From Collinsella tanakaei (GTDB taxonomy: Bacteria > Actinomycetota > Coriobacteriia > Coriobacteriales > Coriobacteriaceae): a stretch of 64,000 nucleotides of DNA. Below, one piece after another: positions 23,682-43,440 of this stretch. Made by a program: the position numbers and the translations under genes. The notes under the pieces were generated by a model. It was not told where the DNA came from. It worked only from the letters and a program-made list of their open reading frames with translations, and did not search any database. Location of the stretch: contig NZ_JACJMB010000009.1 of the NCBI RefSeq assembly GCF_016902615.1, forward strand, positions 1-64,000. The letters run 5' to 3'. Positions within the stretch are counted from its first letter, which is position 1. Each line of letters starts with the position of its first letter.

Positions 23682-23863
23682 GGACAAAAACGCGTTGAGT
23701 GGGACGGTTGGTGGTGCGCCGATCTGCTCCGACGTGTGTCTGTGTATCGTTTGCTATGCGAATCGTCGGCAAACGATGCTGCGGACGCATAAAATTGCCC
23801 CTGGAAGCGCCGTATATAATCCCACAGAACGAGTGAGGAGTCCCACTCAAGGCGTTTTTGTCC
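23682..23863 (+). mobile_element. TIR element copy 1 (182 bp)
   Basis: The left end reads GGACAAAAACGCG-TTGAGTGGGAC and the right end is its complement with one mismatch (24 bp). There is no ORF of any kind inside. The interior holds a second inverted pair near TATCGTTTGC and GCAAACGATG. Two relatives lie at 35150 and 43261. The right end is 10 bp from the stop of the DUF559-like gene. It could be a MITE or a structured RNA or terminator module; no target duplication is evident. Confidence 0.78.
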
Positions 23864-25923: not shown

Positions 25924-26691
25924 TCACGCGCGCTCGATGAGATACGCGGTATACGCATGGTCGAGGGCGTATCCGAGCTGTCGGGCCAGCGTAAGCGATG
26001 CCTCCGTGTGGGCGTCCCAGCTCGCTCGGATGCCACGGGCCGCGCAGGAGAGGATGAGCGCGGCGGAGCAGGCGCGCGCCAGGCCGCGCCGGCGCCAGGC
26101 GGGGTGCGTGTCGACCTCGATCTCGATGGCAGAGCGGCTGCGGGCGTACGTCGAGGCCCCGGAGACGACGCGCCCGCTCGCCAAAGCGACGACGCCCAGG
26201 GCAGAGGTGTCGAAGCGCTCGGCAGAAGGGAACTGCGAGACCAGGTCGCAGCTCCAAGTCTCCGTGCGGCACAGCGCATACGTGGAGGCATCCAGGGGCT
26301 GCAGCACGGTGCCTTCAGGCGGGTTCGCGAGCCAGCGCAGGCGATCACAGTCAAACGCAGCGGGTGCCATCGTGGCGTAGCGCGTGTGCCGAACGAGGCC
26401 GTGCCCCGCCTGCTCCTCGAGAAGGCGGGTCCAGCCTGGGTTGCAGGGGATGAGGATCTGCGGCGACACGGGGAAGGGGCCTGCGGCCATGAGGCCCTCG
26501 AGGAAGGCGGCGCTTCGCGCTCCCGCGAGGTAGGCGAAATCGCCGAGCACGGCCGCGGCGGTGCGTGGGTCGGGTTCGCGATCGATAAGGACGCGGCCCT
26601 GTGCGCCCTCAATGCAGCTCTGGACGATGACCGGCCGCGGTGTCGCGAACAAGGGCGCCGCGATGGCGGGGTTGCGGGCGACGCGCATCAT
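25924..26691 (-). CDS. GNAT-family N-acetyltransferase
   Basis: A 255-residue protein with a C-terminal GNAT domain. The acetyl-CoA loop is EIEVDTHPAWRRRGLARACSAALI (about 190-213), and the following SWDAHTEASLTLARQLGYALD is the typical conserved helix and strand. The N-terminal 110 residues match the GNAT_acetyltr_2 style. Translation is coupled to the Trm9-like gene by an ATGA overlap. Because the partner is a probable wobble-uridine methyltransferase and Elp3 is divergent, a role in tRNA modification or protein acetylation is possible but unproven. Confidence 0.82.
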   Translation of the reverse strand: MMRVARNPAIAAPLFATPRPVIVQSCIEGAQGRVLIDREPDPRTAAAVLGDFAYLAGARSAAFLEGLMAAGPFPVSPQILIPCNPGWTRLLEEQAGHGLVRHTRYATMAPAAFDCDRLRWLANPPEGTVLQPLDASTYALCRTETWSCDLVSQFPSAERFDTSALGVVALASGRVVSGASTYARSRSAIEIEVDTHPAWRRRGLARACSAALILSCAARGIRASWDAHTEASLTLARQLGYALDHAYTAYLIERA

Positions 26692-27458
26692 GCGCCATCG
26701 CCCATACGGCAGATGAGGTAGCGGTTGAGCGCGCCGCTGCGCCCGTCTGCCGAGAAGCGGCAGACCTCATGCGCGCCCGCGTCCGCAAGATGCTCGGCGC
26801 AGGCGTCGACGTCGGCCTCGCTGAAATGGTGGCAGTAGCGCCACGCGTCGCGATCATCCTGCCAGCCGAGATAACGGTCGCCCTCATCAAGATCGGTCGT
26901 CGGCAGGCCGAAGGCGGCCGCGCGCGCATCGGCGGCGTCAGCCTTCGCGGCGAGGCGCTCGTCATCCAAAAAACGCCAGAACGACAGCGCGATGAGCCCA
27001 TGCGGGCGGGTGTGTGCGGCGAGCAGGTCGCCCACGGCGGCACGCAGCCGTGCGCCCGGCACGTGGTGCATGAAGCCGAAGCAGACGGAAAGGTCGCAGG
27101 CGGGAATGCCCGCCAGGGGGTCGTGCCCCTCCAGCAGCGCGCCCAGGATGTCCGCATGGCGATACCTCAGCGCGTCGCCGCGCGGGGCATCGGCGCTAAG
27201 CTCGTCTGCCGCGTCGACCGCCCAGCAGGCAGGCGTGGTGGCGAGGCGACTGGAGAGGAAGCGCTCGAAGCGCAGATTTCCGCAGGCGAGGTCGAGCACG
27301 CGCGGCGCATCGCATGCTGCCAGATGCGGCGCCGCCTCGTCGAGCACACGTTCCCATCCCGGCCAGGGCGCCTGCCGCGTCGCTGAAAACGAGGCGGCGT
27401 GGTCGCGGTAGAACCGGTTGTTGAGCTCGATGAGGAAGCGCGCGGTCTTGGTATCCAT
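26688..27458 (-). CDS. Trm9/ALKBH8-like tRNA wobble-uridine methyltransferase
   Basis: A 256-residue class I methyltransferase. The N-terminus NNRFYRDHAASFSATRQAPWPGW matches the Trm9/ALKBH8 element (Y....HFS.TR..PWP) closely. SAM motif I is VLDLACGN (54-61). FGFMHHVPG corresponds to the Trm9 VHHWST region, and RYCHHFSEADVDACAEHLADAG matches its RYYHLY...EL C-terminal block. Trm9 makes mcm5U from cm5U at the wobble position after Elongator has acted. Elp3 lies divergent 98 bp away, so the pair could form a bacterial cm5U/mcm5U route. The ATG at 27458 follows GGGAG. The exact product is inferred. Confidence 0.72.
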   Translation of the reverse strand: MDTKTARFLIELNNRFYRDHAASFSATRQAPWPGWERVLDEAAPHLAACDAPRVLDLACGNLRFERFLSSRLATTPACWAVDAADELSADAPRGDALRYRHADILGALLEGHDPLAGIPACDLSVCFGFMHHVPGARLRAAVGDLLAAHTRPHGLIALSFWRFLDDERLAAKADAADARAAAFGLPTTDLDEGDRYLGWQDDRDAWRYCHHFSEADVDACAEHLADAGAHEVCRFSADGRSGALNRYLICRMGDGA

Positions 27459-27556
27459 GGGTCTCCCGGCAAACGTGTGGAACATCCCCATCATAGCGCC
27501 CTGCAGGGGCCGAACGGCCCGGCCTGCCGGCACCCCCTACGCTAGAATAGCGGGCT
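27459..27556. promoter_or_regulatory. Shared divergent promoter region of the Trm9-like gene and elp3
   Basis: This is the only gap between the two divergent genes. TAGAAT at 27543-27548 lies 8 nt before the elp3 ATG, and no SD lies between, so elp3 may be transcribed as a leaderless mRNA. The -35 element is not convincing. Confidence 0.45.
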
Positions 27557-29452
27557 ATGGAGCAGATTATCTTGAACATACTCGACGCGCTCAAGCGCGG
27601 CGAGACGGTTGACGACACCGCGCTCGTGCGTCTCGTCCACGCACAGGCGAAGCGTGCGGGCGGCGATAAGCGGGCGTTCGCGAAGCGGCGCCTGCTGCCG
27701 TACTACCAGCGTGTGAAGCGCGAGGATCCCGAGCGCTGGCGCAGCTGGGGTGTCACGCCGGAGCTCGAGCGTGGCCTGTTGCGGGTCCTGCGGATGAAAC
27801 CGCGCCGCTCGGCATCGGGCGTGGCGACCATCACGGTCATCACCAAGCCGTGGCCGTGTGCAAGCGATTGCCGCTACTGTCCCTGTGACGTGCGCATGCC
27901 CAAAAGCTACCTGCACGGCGAGCCCGCATGCGCGCGGGCGGAGCAGAACTGGTTCGACCCGTACCTGCAGGTGGCGACGCGTCTCACGGCGCTCGCGCAG
28001 ATGGGGCACGCCACCGACAAGATCGAGCTCATCATCCTCGGGGGCACGTGGAGCGACTACCCGCGCGCCTACCAGATCTGGTTCGTGACCGAGCTGTTTC
28101 GCGCGCTGAACGACGATGCGATCTCGGGCGTGGCGGCGAATCCCATGCTTGCCGCACCGGGTGAGGACCCCGGAGCGGTTCTGGCGAGCGCGACCGATGT
28201 CCCCGCGGGCGTGGCGCGGCGGCGCGAGCGCTATCGCGCGCTCGGCATCCCGCGCGACGAAGACGAGCTGCACGCGCTGACCGCGGACATGCAGGCGCAG
28301 GTCAGCAGACATGTGCGCAGCTACAACGAGGCGGTTCGCGAACTCTACGGTCCGCATTCGGCATATGCGCGGCTTGCCCTCGAACAGACTGGCACGCTCG
28401 AGGAGCTCGAGCGCGTGCAGCGCGAGAACGAGCATGCGCGCCATCGCGTGGTGGGGCTCGTCGTCGAGACGCGGCCGGACGCCATCACGCCGGAGGCGCT
28501 CACGCTGATCCGGCGCCTGGGAGCCACGAAGGTGCAGATGGGCATCCAGAGCACCGATCAGGCGATCCTGGACGCCAACCGGCGCTCGATCCCGGTCGCG
28601 CGCATCGCCGAAGCGTTCTCGTGGCTGCGCGCGTTCGGCTTCAAGATCCATGCGCATGCCATGGTGAACCTGTTGGGCGCCACGCCGGCATCCGATCGCG
28701 CCGACTACCGGCGGCTCGTGGAGGACCCCGCGTTCATGCCCGACGAGGTGAAGCTCTATCCGTGCGCCCTCATCGAGGGGACGCGCCTCGGTGACGACTT
28801 CGCGCGCGGGACGTGGGCGCCCTACCGGAACGAGGAGCTCGTCGCCGTGCTGCGCGATGACGTGCTGGCGACGCCGGCGTTCTGCCGCATCTCCCGCATG
28901 ATCAGGGACTTCTCGACGCGCGACATCAAAGCGGGCAACAAGCACCCGAACCTGCGGCAGCTGGTCGAGGCGGGCATCGAGGCGGACGGGGATGCGTCCC
29001 GCGCGGTGCGCGAGATCAGGTTCCGCGAGGTCGGGACCGCGGAGGTGCCGCTCGATGAGCTCAAGCTCGAGACCTGCGCGTACACGACGGCGAACACGCG
29101 CGAGCGCTTCTTGCAGTGGGTGCTGCCCGACGGCCGCATCGCGGGCTTTTTGCGCCTGTCGCTACCAGATGCCACGTTTATCGCAGCGCATGCGGATGCG
29201 TTGCCCATAGGTGCAGGCGAGGCGATGATCCGCGAGGTCCACGTCTACGGCATGGCGACGAACGTGGGCGAGGAGGGTCGGGCGGCACAGCACCAGGGTT
29301 TGGGGCGCCGCCTGGTCGAGCGCGCCTGCGAGCTCGCGCGCGCGGCGGGCTATGAGCGCATCAACGTCATCAGCGCTGTGGGCACGCGGGAGTACTATCG
29401 GGCCCTCGGTTTTTCCGATCGCGGGCTCTATCAGCAAAAGGAGTTGTCATGA
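27557..29452 (+). CDS. elp3: Elp3-family tRNA uridine-34 modification enzyme
   Basis: A 631-residue full-length Elp3: a radical-SAM domain with the cluster cysteines at 101, 105 and 108 (CASDCRYC), followed by a GNAT domain (about 540-631, IREVHVYGMATNVGE, GLGRRLVERACELARAAGYERI, REYYRALGF). The SAM domain contains ELIILGGTWSDYP and IRDFSTRDIKAGNKHPNLRQ, as in archaeal and eukaryotic Elp3. It attaches the carboxymethyl group at C5 of wobble uridine. The stop overlaps the next gene by four bases (ATGA). It is divergent from a Trm9-like methyltransferase. Elp3 is scattered in bacteria, so this is a notable locus. Confidence 0.93.
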   Translation: MEQIILNILDALKRGETVDDTALVRLVHAQAKRAGGDKRAFAKRRLLPYYQRVKREDPERWRSWGVTPELERGLLRVLRMKPRRSASGVATITVITKPWPCASDCRYCPCDVRMPKSYLHGEPACARAEQNWFDPYLQVATRLTALAQMGHATDKIELIILGGTWSDYPRAYQIWFVTELFRALNDDAISGVAANPMLAAPGEDPGAVLASATDVPAGVARRRERYRALGIPRDEDELHALTADMQAQVSRHVRSYNEAVRELYGPHSAYARLALEQTGTLEELERVQRENEHARHRVVGLVVETRPDAITPEALTLIRRLGATKVQMGIQSTDQAILDANRRSIPVARIAEAFSWLRAFGFKIHAHAMVNLLGATPASDRADYRRLVEDPAFMPDEVKLYPCALIEGTRLGDDFARGTWAPYRNEELVAVLRDDVLATPAFCRISRMIRDFSTRDIKAGNKHPNLRQLVEAGIEADGDASRAVREIRFREVGTAEVPLDELKLETCAYTTANTRERFLQWVLPDGRIAGFLRLSLPDATFIAAHADALPIGAGEAMIREVHVYGMATNVGEEGRAAQHQGLGRRLVERACELARAAGYERINVISAVGTREYYRALGFSDRGLYQQKELS

Positions 29453-30327
29453 GGCGAACGGGCACGCGCGCCGTCAGGCGGGGTGCGGCTGCGCTTGCGC
29501 TCGCGGCTGCGGGGCTTGCGGGCGCGGTCGCGTGGGTGAAGGCCGATGCGCACCTCGCGCGCACACGGTCCGGCTGGGCGCTCATCCGCACGCGGCGCCT
29601 GCCGGACGGCACGCGCGTACGCGTGCTGCGCCAGGGCGGGGTCTACCAGTCGGCGACCTATCTCGATGAGCGGCGCTTCGAGCCGCCGTTTGCCTATCAA
29701 CGCGCCTTTGATGTCATGTTCGAGGCGGAAGGCGATATGAGGCGCGCGCGTGTCCACGGTCTCGGGAACGTGCTGGCGATCGGGGGCGGCGGGTACGCGT
29801 GGCCGAAGCATACGCTGTGCGCGCAACGCGACCTGCGGATGGACGTGGTGGAGATCGATGCCGCGGTGACGCGCATCGCCCGTCGCTGGTTTTTCGTCGA
29901 CGAGCTCGAGCGGCTCGCGTGCGGTCGTTTGCGGCTCATCGAGGCCGACGGGCGCACCTATCTGGAGGGCGCGGCGCCCGGTTCCTACGATGCGATCGTG
30001 AACGATACGTTTGCCGGCAGCGAGCCCGTGGTCGCCTTGGCCACGCGCGAGGCCATGCAAGCCGCCCATGCGTGCCTTCGCGCCGGTGGGCTCTATCTCG
30101 CCAACGTCGTCTCGCGCGACGAGGGCGAGGATCTGTCGTTTCTCCGCGACGTGGTGGCGACGTGCGCTGAGGTGTTCGCGCACGTGTGGGTGGTGCCGGC
30201 GACCGACGAGGAGCTGGGCGGCGAGGACAACTACATCGTCATCGCAAGCGACGACGCGTACCGTTTCGAGGAGGCCATTCCCTTCGATGACTCGTTTCTG
30301 GGCAATGTGATGCGCGACCGCGCATAA
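29449..30327 (+). CDS. Spermidine-synthase-like protein
   Basis: A 292-residue protein with an N-terminal hydrophobic helix (about 10-32) and a spermidine/spermine-synthase-type Rossmann domain: VLAIGGGGYAWPKHTL (cofactor loop), MDVVEIDAAVTRIARRWF, and DAIVNDTFAGSEPV. The D..Y..W polyamine-binding residues of true spermidine synthases are not evident, so it may transfer a different group. It overlaps elp3 by four bases, so it is translated with it. The link to tRNA modification is from position only. The N-terminal helix suggests membrane attachment. Confidence 0.65.
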   Translation: MRRTGTRAVRRGAAALALAAAGLAGAVAWVKADAHLARTRSGWALIRTRRLPDGTRVRVLRQGGVYQSATYLDERRFEPPFAYQRAFDVMFEAEGDMRRARVHGLGNVLAIGGGGYAWPKHTLCAQRDLRMDVVEIDAAVTRIARRWFFVDELERLACGRLRLIEADGRTYLEGAAPGSYDAIVNDTFAGSEPVVALATREAMQAAHACLRAGGLYLANVVSRDEGEDLSFLRDVVATCAEVFAHVWVVPATDEELGGEDNYIVIASDDAYRFEEAIPFDDSFLGNVMRDRA

Positions 30328-35149: not shown

Positions 35150-35330
35150 GGACAAAAACGCCTTGAGTGGGACTCCCGAGTGAGCCAATGGGTTGATGGC
35201 CTTGGCCGAAGGGCACATTTTCATGCAGTAAGGGAAATAAACCAGCAGGTCGTATTGATTTATTATGCATTGGAATATCGGGCACGAGCGCGGGGCGCAT
35301 GTATAGGTCCCACTTAAGGGAAATTTGACC
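35150..35330 (-). mobile_element. TIR element copy 2 (181 bp)
   Basis: The left end reads GGACAAAAACGCC-TTGAGTGGGAC, the form found at the right ends of copies 1 and 3, so this copy is inverted relative to them. Its far end is degenerate (GTCCCACTTAAGGGAAATT then TGACC). The interior is AT-richer than the flanks and shares a GGGCACATTTTCATGC-type stretch with the complement of copy 1. No ORF. It lies in the 480-bp gap between the methyltransferase and the permease-ATPase gene. Confidence 0.72.
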
Positions 35331-43260: not shown

Positions 43261-43440
43261 GGACAAAAACGCGTTGAGTGGGACCTATACAGCGCCGTTT
43301 TCTGGTGCCCCGGAAGAGCAATGAATAATTATCAGCAATATCTAGGTTATATTTTAGAATCAATGAGAAATTATCGCTGATGTTGGAGCTCGTAAATCCT
43401 ACTGAAATGATGGGAAGTCCCAATCAAGGCATTTTTGTCC
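43261..43440 (+). mobile_element. TIR element copy 3 (180 bp)
   Basis: The left end is identical to copy 1 (GGACAAAAACGCG-TTGAGTGGGAC); the right end is its complement with four mismatches. The interior is strikingly AT-rich for this chromosome (ATGAATAATTATCAGC, TTATATTTTAGAATC). An inner inverted pair, CATTGATT/AATCAATG-like, is present. It sits 160 bp upstream of the TerB-protein start, in the promoter region of that operon, so it may affect its expression. Confidence 0.78.

Follow-up and report, generated by a model that had tools for sequence, protein, structure and literature searches.

A divergent Elp3 and Trm9-like methyltransferase gene pair in Collinsella and other Coriobacteriia, a candidate two-enzyme route to a methyl-esterified wobble uridine

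Here, we describe a pair of divergently oriented genes in the gut actinobacterium Collinsella tanakaei (class Coriobacteriia), located within the first 64,000 nucleotides of contig NZ_JACJMB010000009.1 (assembly GCF_016902615.1), a stretch referred to below as the window. One gene encodes a Trm9-like methyltransferase (MT) and the other encodes Elp3, which combines a radical SAM domain with a lysine acetyltransferase (KAT) domain of the GNAT type. The two proteins are predicted to act in succession on the wobble uridine of tRNA (U34), through 5-carboxymethyluridine (cm5U34) to its methyl ester, 5-methoxycarbonylmethyluridine (mcm5U34). The features of the core locus are as follows.

26688..27458, minus strand: MT, a Trm9-like methyltransferase dependent on S-adenosylmethionine (SAM), 256 amino acids (aa); predicted tRNA cm5U34 carboxyl methyltransferase
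27459..27556, no strand: divergent intergenic region of 98 bp, in which both promoters are presumed to lie
27557..29452, plus strand: Elp3 (radical SAM plus KAT/GNAT), 631 aa; predicted tRNA U34 carboxymethyltransferase
27857..27880, plus strand: CASDCRYC, the [4Fe-4S] motif of Elp3 (C101, C105, C108), with Cys in 19/19 homologues
28112..28405, plus strand: clade-specific insertion of Elp3, approximately residues 186-283, 97 aa here and 64-128 aa in homologues

Both genes lie exactly where the preliminary description of this DNA had placed them, and the divergent arrangement that it reported is borne out, the start codons being 98 bp apart; the coding part of MT occupies 26691-27458 on the minus strand, with the stop codon at 26688-26690. 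The two elements on which its comparison with Trm9 rested are likewise present, namely, the N-terminal element at residues 20-35 (HAASFSATRQAPWPGW) and the RY.HH block at residues 207-211 (RYCHH). Inspection of 27459-27556 for promoters identified no convincing one. At other divergent loci, the gap between MT and Elp3 is often exactly 23 bp (e.g., L077, L097, L106 and L109), which is too short for two ordinary promoters, so that the starts may be misassigned there or the mRNAs may be leaderless.

The two genes occur together across the class. The search for the pair that the preliminary description had called for was carried out on 198 Coriobacteriia genomes with a completeness of 90% or more, and found both Elp3 and MT in 110, neither in 86, Elp3 alone in 2, and MT alone in none, with both of the Elp3-only genomes ending at contig edges. 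The association is extreme (Fisher p 9e-55, phylogeny ignored); more telling, however, is joint presence and absence within genera, as in g30 and g40, each of which includes species with both genes and a species with neither. In 2 genomes (G162 and G173), both genes have been retained even though they are unlinked, 78 and 242 kb apart. Four apparent exceptions to co-occurrence (G028, G044, G133 and G203) were dismissed as contig edges, and a candidate joint natural loss, with both genes broken (G084), was dismissed because a run of N spans the two.

Physical linkage is equally persistent. Among 80 named MT loci, from Collinsella, Enorma, Slackia, Atopobium and metagenome-assembled genomes (MAGs) of Eggerthellaceae and Atopobiaceae, Elp3 adjoins MT in 77 (76 divergent, 1 tandem), and the remaining 3 run off the contig at the place expected for Elp3, so that all 77 assessable loci are linked and the adjacency is not due to chance. 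Outside the genus, 64 of the 71 linked pairs are divergent and 7 are tandem, and the pair persists while nearly all other neighbours differ. One genome (G098) carries two full-length copies of MT on different contigs (C6 and C4; L272 and L273), one beside Elp3 and the other alone elsewhere. A MAG labelled Propionibacteriaceae (L135) also contains a coriobacterial pair and is probably a misassigned bin.

The window Elp3 scores 389.8 bits against TIGR01211, above the curated cut-off of 350, and contains the Radical_SAM, Radical_SAM_C and GNAT domains, as expected of the full radical-SAM/GNAT Elp3 that had been described at this locus. Mutational studies have established the importance of E207, K302 and Y304 on the radical SAM side (M. 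infernus numbering; PMC13315578) and of K150, K266, Q461 (E386 in the Dehalococcoides mccartyi enzyme, DmcElp3) and Y517 in the KAT domain (PMC6367351). When residue numbers are transferred through alignments, all 7 of these archaeal residues have counterparts in the window protein: among 19 homologues from many families, E304, K399 and Y401 (equivalent to E207, K302 and Y304) are invariant, as are C101, C105 and C108, and K155, K363, E560 and Y613 (equivalent to K150, K266, Q461 and Y517) are kept in 18-19. The sole departing homologue (L057, genome G059) differs at 3 KAT-side positions (K155R, K363Q and Y613F) and may be degenerate. The structural model (mean predicted local distance difference test, pLDDT, 86.9) retrieves Elp3 as all of its top 11 structure matches in the PDB, with E-values of ~1e-29 or better, whereas the score against the model for MnmL, TIGR01212, is 45.6 bits, far below the cut-off of 180. 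Judged by these domains, residues and structural matches, the window protein is a true Elp3.

Two features set this Elp3 apart. The insertion divides the radical SAM domain between its first part and its second, is partly helical in the structural model and has a conserved YN.A...LYG core; it is not present in archaeal, Dehalococcoides or other actinobacterial Elp3. In addition, no Cys was found in the region equivalent to the zinc site in any of the 19 homologues. The zinc-site cysteines are a feature of bacterial and archaeal Elp3 that eukaryotic Elp3 lacks and, hence, are neither universal in Elp3 nor defining for it.

The affinity of MT (METHYLTRANSFERASE), which has no curated family match in Pfam, NCBIfam or PHROGs, to Trm9 emerges from residues and from profile comparisons. 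Across 22 homologues, the invariant positions include F24, T27, R28, W32, G60-N61, H131-H132, R207, H210 and N245. Five residues of yeast Trm9, R29, H115, R241, Y243 and N271, are needed for tRNA binding and catalysis, as determined by mutation (PMC5372719); they align with R28, H131, R207, C209 and N245 of MT, 4 of the 5 being identical. These 4 residues are kept in 20/20 MT sequences and in all 4 members of an MT homologue from other Actinomycetota (MT2, described below), and occur together in none of 17 control proteins, that is, further SAM methyltransferases that these genomes encode, collected by a Trm9/MT2 profile search. A joint profile of MT and MT2, built without the yeast Trm9 sequence, retrieves yeast Trm9 as the best match among PDB sequences (E = 1.8e-12; next, 6e-8); MT2 alone also has Trm9 as its best match, over nearly the full length (E = 5.5e-17); and MT aligns with a profile of MT2 plus yeast Trm9 over 234 columns with 99.6% probability. 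The yeast Trm9 sequence used here matches 5cm2_Z with E = 2.7e-72, and all 5 published mutant positions fall on the expected residues in it. The tree separates MT, MT2 and Trm9 from the control methyltransferases, although with weak support, and the clustering with unrelated small-molecule enzymes named in the preliminary description as contrary evidence was not seen. A reciprocal Trm9/MT2 profile search of the relatives was rejected as a test because it was swamped by generic SAM-binding cores. With regard to MnmM (YtqB), neither an MnmM nor an rRNA_methylase family appeared among the Pfam and NCBIfam matches of 22 members of the MT family.

The association extends to a second actinobacterial lineage. 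A survey of the phylum yielded 6 genomes outside Coriobacteriia that encode an archaeal-type Elp3, scoring ~600 bits on TIGR01211 and lacking the insertion, and in all 4 loci that are assessable, the contig reaching far enough, MT2 adjoins this gene in divergent orientation (E ~1e-22 to the window MT). That an insertion-free, archaeal-type Elp3 has a partner of this MT family too suggests that both lineages make one and the same product.

The pathway context is compatible with a role at U34. Above the respective cut-offs, and with controls detected, MnmE was found in 0 of the 198 class genomes and MnmG in 1 of the 198 and in none of 60 relatives. Matches to MnmE in 114 genomes were set aside, being confined to the GTPase region (within 148-397), below the cut-off and mostly in open reading frames (ORFs) of 440-500 aa; they are probably Der/EngA. 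The only true MnmG (genome G112, C8:4785-6362; L179 and L277) occurs with neither an MnmE above the cut-off nor Elp3, and could reflect either horizontal transfer or contamination. With these counts, and with 86 genomes devoid of Elp3 and MT, part of the class must have neither system: those 86 genomes (e.g., G048, G053 and G056) also lack MnmE and, except for G112, MnmG, and their lineages apparently do not modify C5 of U34 through any of these known routes. The thiolase MnmA is present in the C. tanakaei genome itself and in all 50 good-quality relatives, and the U34 tRNAs of C. tanakaei comprise those for Lys, Glu, Gln, Arg-UCU, Gly-UCC and Leu-UAA, plus those of four-codon boxes.

From the established gene pair, its conservation and linkage, and the residue identities, we infer both activities and their product: the pair would make mcm5U34 with two enzymes, Elp3 forming cm5U34 and MT converting it to mcm5U34, with 2-thiolation (s2) by MnmA a possible addition, a reading to which we assign a probability of about 0.78. 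In the first step, as the conserved catalytic residues suggest, the KAT domain of Elp3 would hydrolyse acetyl-CoA, and a 5′-deoxyadenosyl radical would serve to place the acetate on C5 of U34, yielding cm5U34, as archaeal Elp3 does alone. In the second, MT would use SAM to methylate the carboxylate of cm5U, apparently without Trm112; the Trm9-type residues, the linkage and the co-occurrence all point to this step. More tentatively, MnmA might then add s2 on the Lys-UUU, Glu-UUC and Gln-UUG tRNAs to give mcm5s2U34. The Elp3/MT system would substitute for MnmE/MnmG, which the class lacks, and Collinsella and most of the related gut bacteria probably make mcm5U. The two-enzyme bacterial pathway put forward in the preliminary description accordingly gains support from co-occurrence, linkage, the missing MnmE/MnmG and the residues of both enzymes, while remaining a proposal drawn from sequence.

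Several observations weigh against this assignment. The position of Trm9 Y243 is occupied by C209 in the window MT, by C, or in a few homologues A or V, in the MT family and by C, Y or F in MT2. When the MT-family profile is used alone against PDB sequences, Trm9 is only the second-best match (E = 1.5e-4); the branch joining MT with Trm9 is weakly supported (80/50); and a mixed Trm9/MT2 profile run on the C. tanakaei genome has as its best match the SAM-binding core of another methyltransferase, the window MT falling below the threshold. The structural model of MT (pLDDT 95.7) adopts the class I SAM methyltransferase fold; Trm9 (5cm2) ranks ninth among its Foldseek matches (E = 1.8e-10), and the fold comparison fails to discriminate among class I methyltransferases. 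Elp3 carries a large insertion. Finally, Trm112 (PF03966) was found neither in the C. tanakaei genome nor in most MT-positive relatives, and the matches elsewhere lie inside long ORFs. Trm112 is the activator required by eukaryotic Trm9. Given that Trm112 was not found and that Y243 is replaced, MT is classed here as a Trm9-like branch rather than as Trm9 itself.

Among the competing explanations, the one that survives best, although we consider it unlikely, is that the insertion and divergence of Elp3 have changed its specificity, so that it takes another acyl donor or its product is a derivative different from cm5U, and that MT esterifies or otherwise methylates this different side chain to give a new wobble nucleoside. 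Such a scheme would accommodate the low TIGR01211 score of the window Elp3 compared to the ~600 bits of the archaeal-type Elp3 of other Actinomycetota, the insertion of 64-128 residues, the missing zinc cysteines and the Cys of MT in place of Y243; conceivably, but with equally long odds, the insertion alters the acyl donor, and methylation of that side chain, combined with MnmA thiolation, produces an undescribed wobble-uridine side chain. However, all residues known to be required for handling acetate and hydrolysing acetyl-CoA are kept, and the insertion-free Elp3 has a partner from this MT family as well. It is less plausible still that Elp3 makes cm5U34 while MT, merely co-regulated, methylates another tRNA or rRNA position: fold matches are non-specific and the tRNA methyltransferase METTL6 is among the top structures, but the Trm9 residues that position cm5U34 are invariant in MT, and MT never occurs without Elp3 in the 198 genomes. 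We regard as highly improbable that MT is an enzyme of the CmoM/CmoA type acting on uridine 5-oxyacetic acid (cmo5U34) rather than on cm5U34; CmoM is a fold neighbour, which the fold does not separate from MT any more than CmoA, and CmoA structures appear in the PDB profile lists, but far below Trm9 with the joint profile (1.7e-4 against 1.8e-12), and MT is strictly tied to Elp3. That MT is a small-molecule methyltransferase lying beside Elp3 by accident, as its generic fold and the want of a curated family match might suggest, can practically be discarded in view of the linkage across many families and in a second lineage, the co-occurrence, and the occurrence of the Trm9 signature in 0/17 control methyltransferases.

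Two further genes flank the pair in the window.

25924..26691, minus strand: GNAT acetyltransferase (PF12746), outside the core pair, in some Collinsella only
29449..30327, plus strand: spermidine-synthase-like protein (C-terminal domain of NF037959), outside the core pair

The start of the GNAT gene overlaps the MT stop codon by 4 nt (ATGA). Not all Collinsella carry this gene, and it was found in no other genus; a spermidine-synthase-like neighbour of Elp3 occurs mainly in Collinsella and Enorma. Because their conservation is limited to Collinsella or close relatives, neither belongs to the core, and the earlier idea that these neighbours add steps to the pathway is not supported. Elsewhere in the window, a dispersed element of ~180 bp resembling a miniature inverted-repeat transposable element occurs at 23682-23863, 35150-35325 and 43261-43440, with the inverted ends GGACAAAAACGC(C/G)TTGAGTGGGAC ... 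GTCCCACTCAAGGCGTTTTTGTCC; 5 matches to the ends were observed against 0.01 expected, and the copy at 35.3 kb has a degenerate 3′ end.

Among the closest known systems is that of eukaryotes, in which Elongator (Elp1-6), with Elp3 as its catalytic core, and Trm9-Trm112 or ALKBH8-TRMT112 produce mcm5U34 and mcm5s2U34. The predicted order, cm5U to mcm5U, is the same, and R29, H115, R241 and N271 of Trm9 are shared with MT; by contrast, the coriobacterial Elp3 is encoded by a single gene linked to that of MT, no Trm112 was found, Y243 is a Cys, and thiolation would fall to the bacterial MnmA instead of Ncs6/Ncs2. For archaea, Elp3 acting without the other subunits and alongside a Trm9-like gene has been proposed in reviewed work (Haloferax and, as a cluster, Sulfolobus; PMC5372719), an arrangement resembling the one predicted here; the differences are the link of archaeal Trm9 to Trm112, the insertion and the missing zinc cysteines of the coriobacterial Elp3, and the domain of life of the host. 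DmcElp3 (5L7J) is a bacterial enzyme that shares its radical SAM and KAT domains and its active residues with the window protein, but has a short N-terminus, zinc cysteines and no insertion. The bacterial MnmE-MnmG, which makes 5-carboxymethylaminomethyluridine (cmnm5U34), and MnmL/MnmM, with MnmL a radical SAM protein related to Elp3, also act on C5 of U34; unlike the pair described here, MnmE and MnmG were not found in the class over the cut-off, except for MnmG in one genome.

Thus, novelty lies in the bacterial setting: the preliminary description had presented a two-enzyme bacterial version as new, and an Elp3/Trm9 system of two enzymes had already been proposed for archaea, with the genes clustered in Sulfolobus (PMC5372719). 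Elp3 has been reported in numerous bacteria (PMC13315578), although elsewhere bacterial Elp3 is named only for Dehalococcoides, with no direct evidence of bacterial cm5U derivatives (PMC7663514), and mcm5U is assigned to archaea and eukaryotes only (PMC7694415). A 2024 survey of 23 pathogens by liquid chromatography-mass spectrometry included no coriobacteria (PMC11708014), and among open-licence papers we found none on a bacterial Elp3-Trm9-like pair.

If the proposed pathway is correct, common human gut bacteria would decode with a wobble ester of the eukaryotic and archaeal type, which very few enzymes would suffice to make and which bacterial thiolation would probably accompany, and MT would provide a minimal, Trm112-free model of a Trm9-like enzyme. 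The pathway would also account for the many Coriobacteriia that live without MnmE and MnmG, and mcm5U nucleosides detected in gut or stool samples would not necessarily derive from the host or from fungi.

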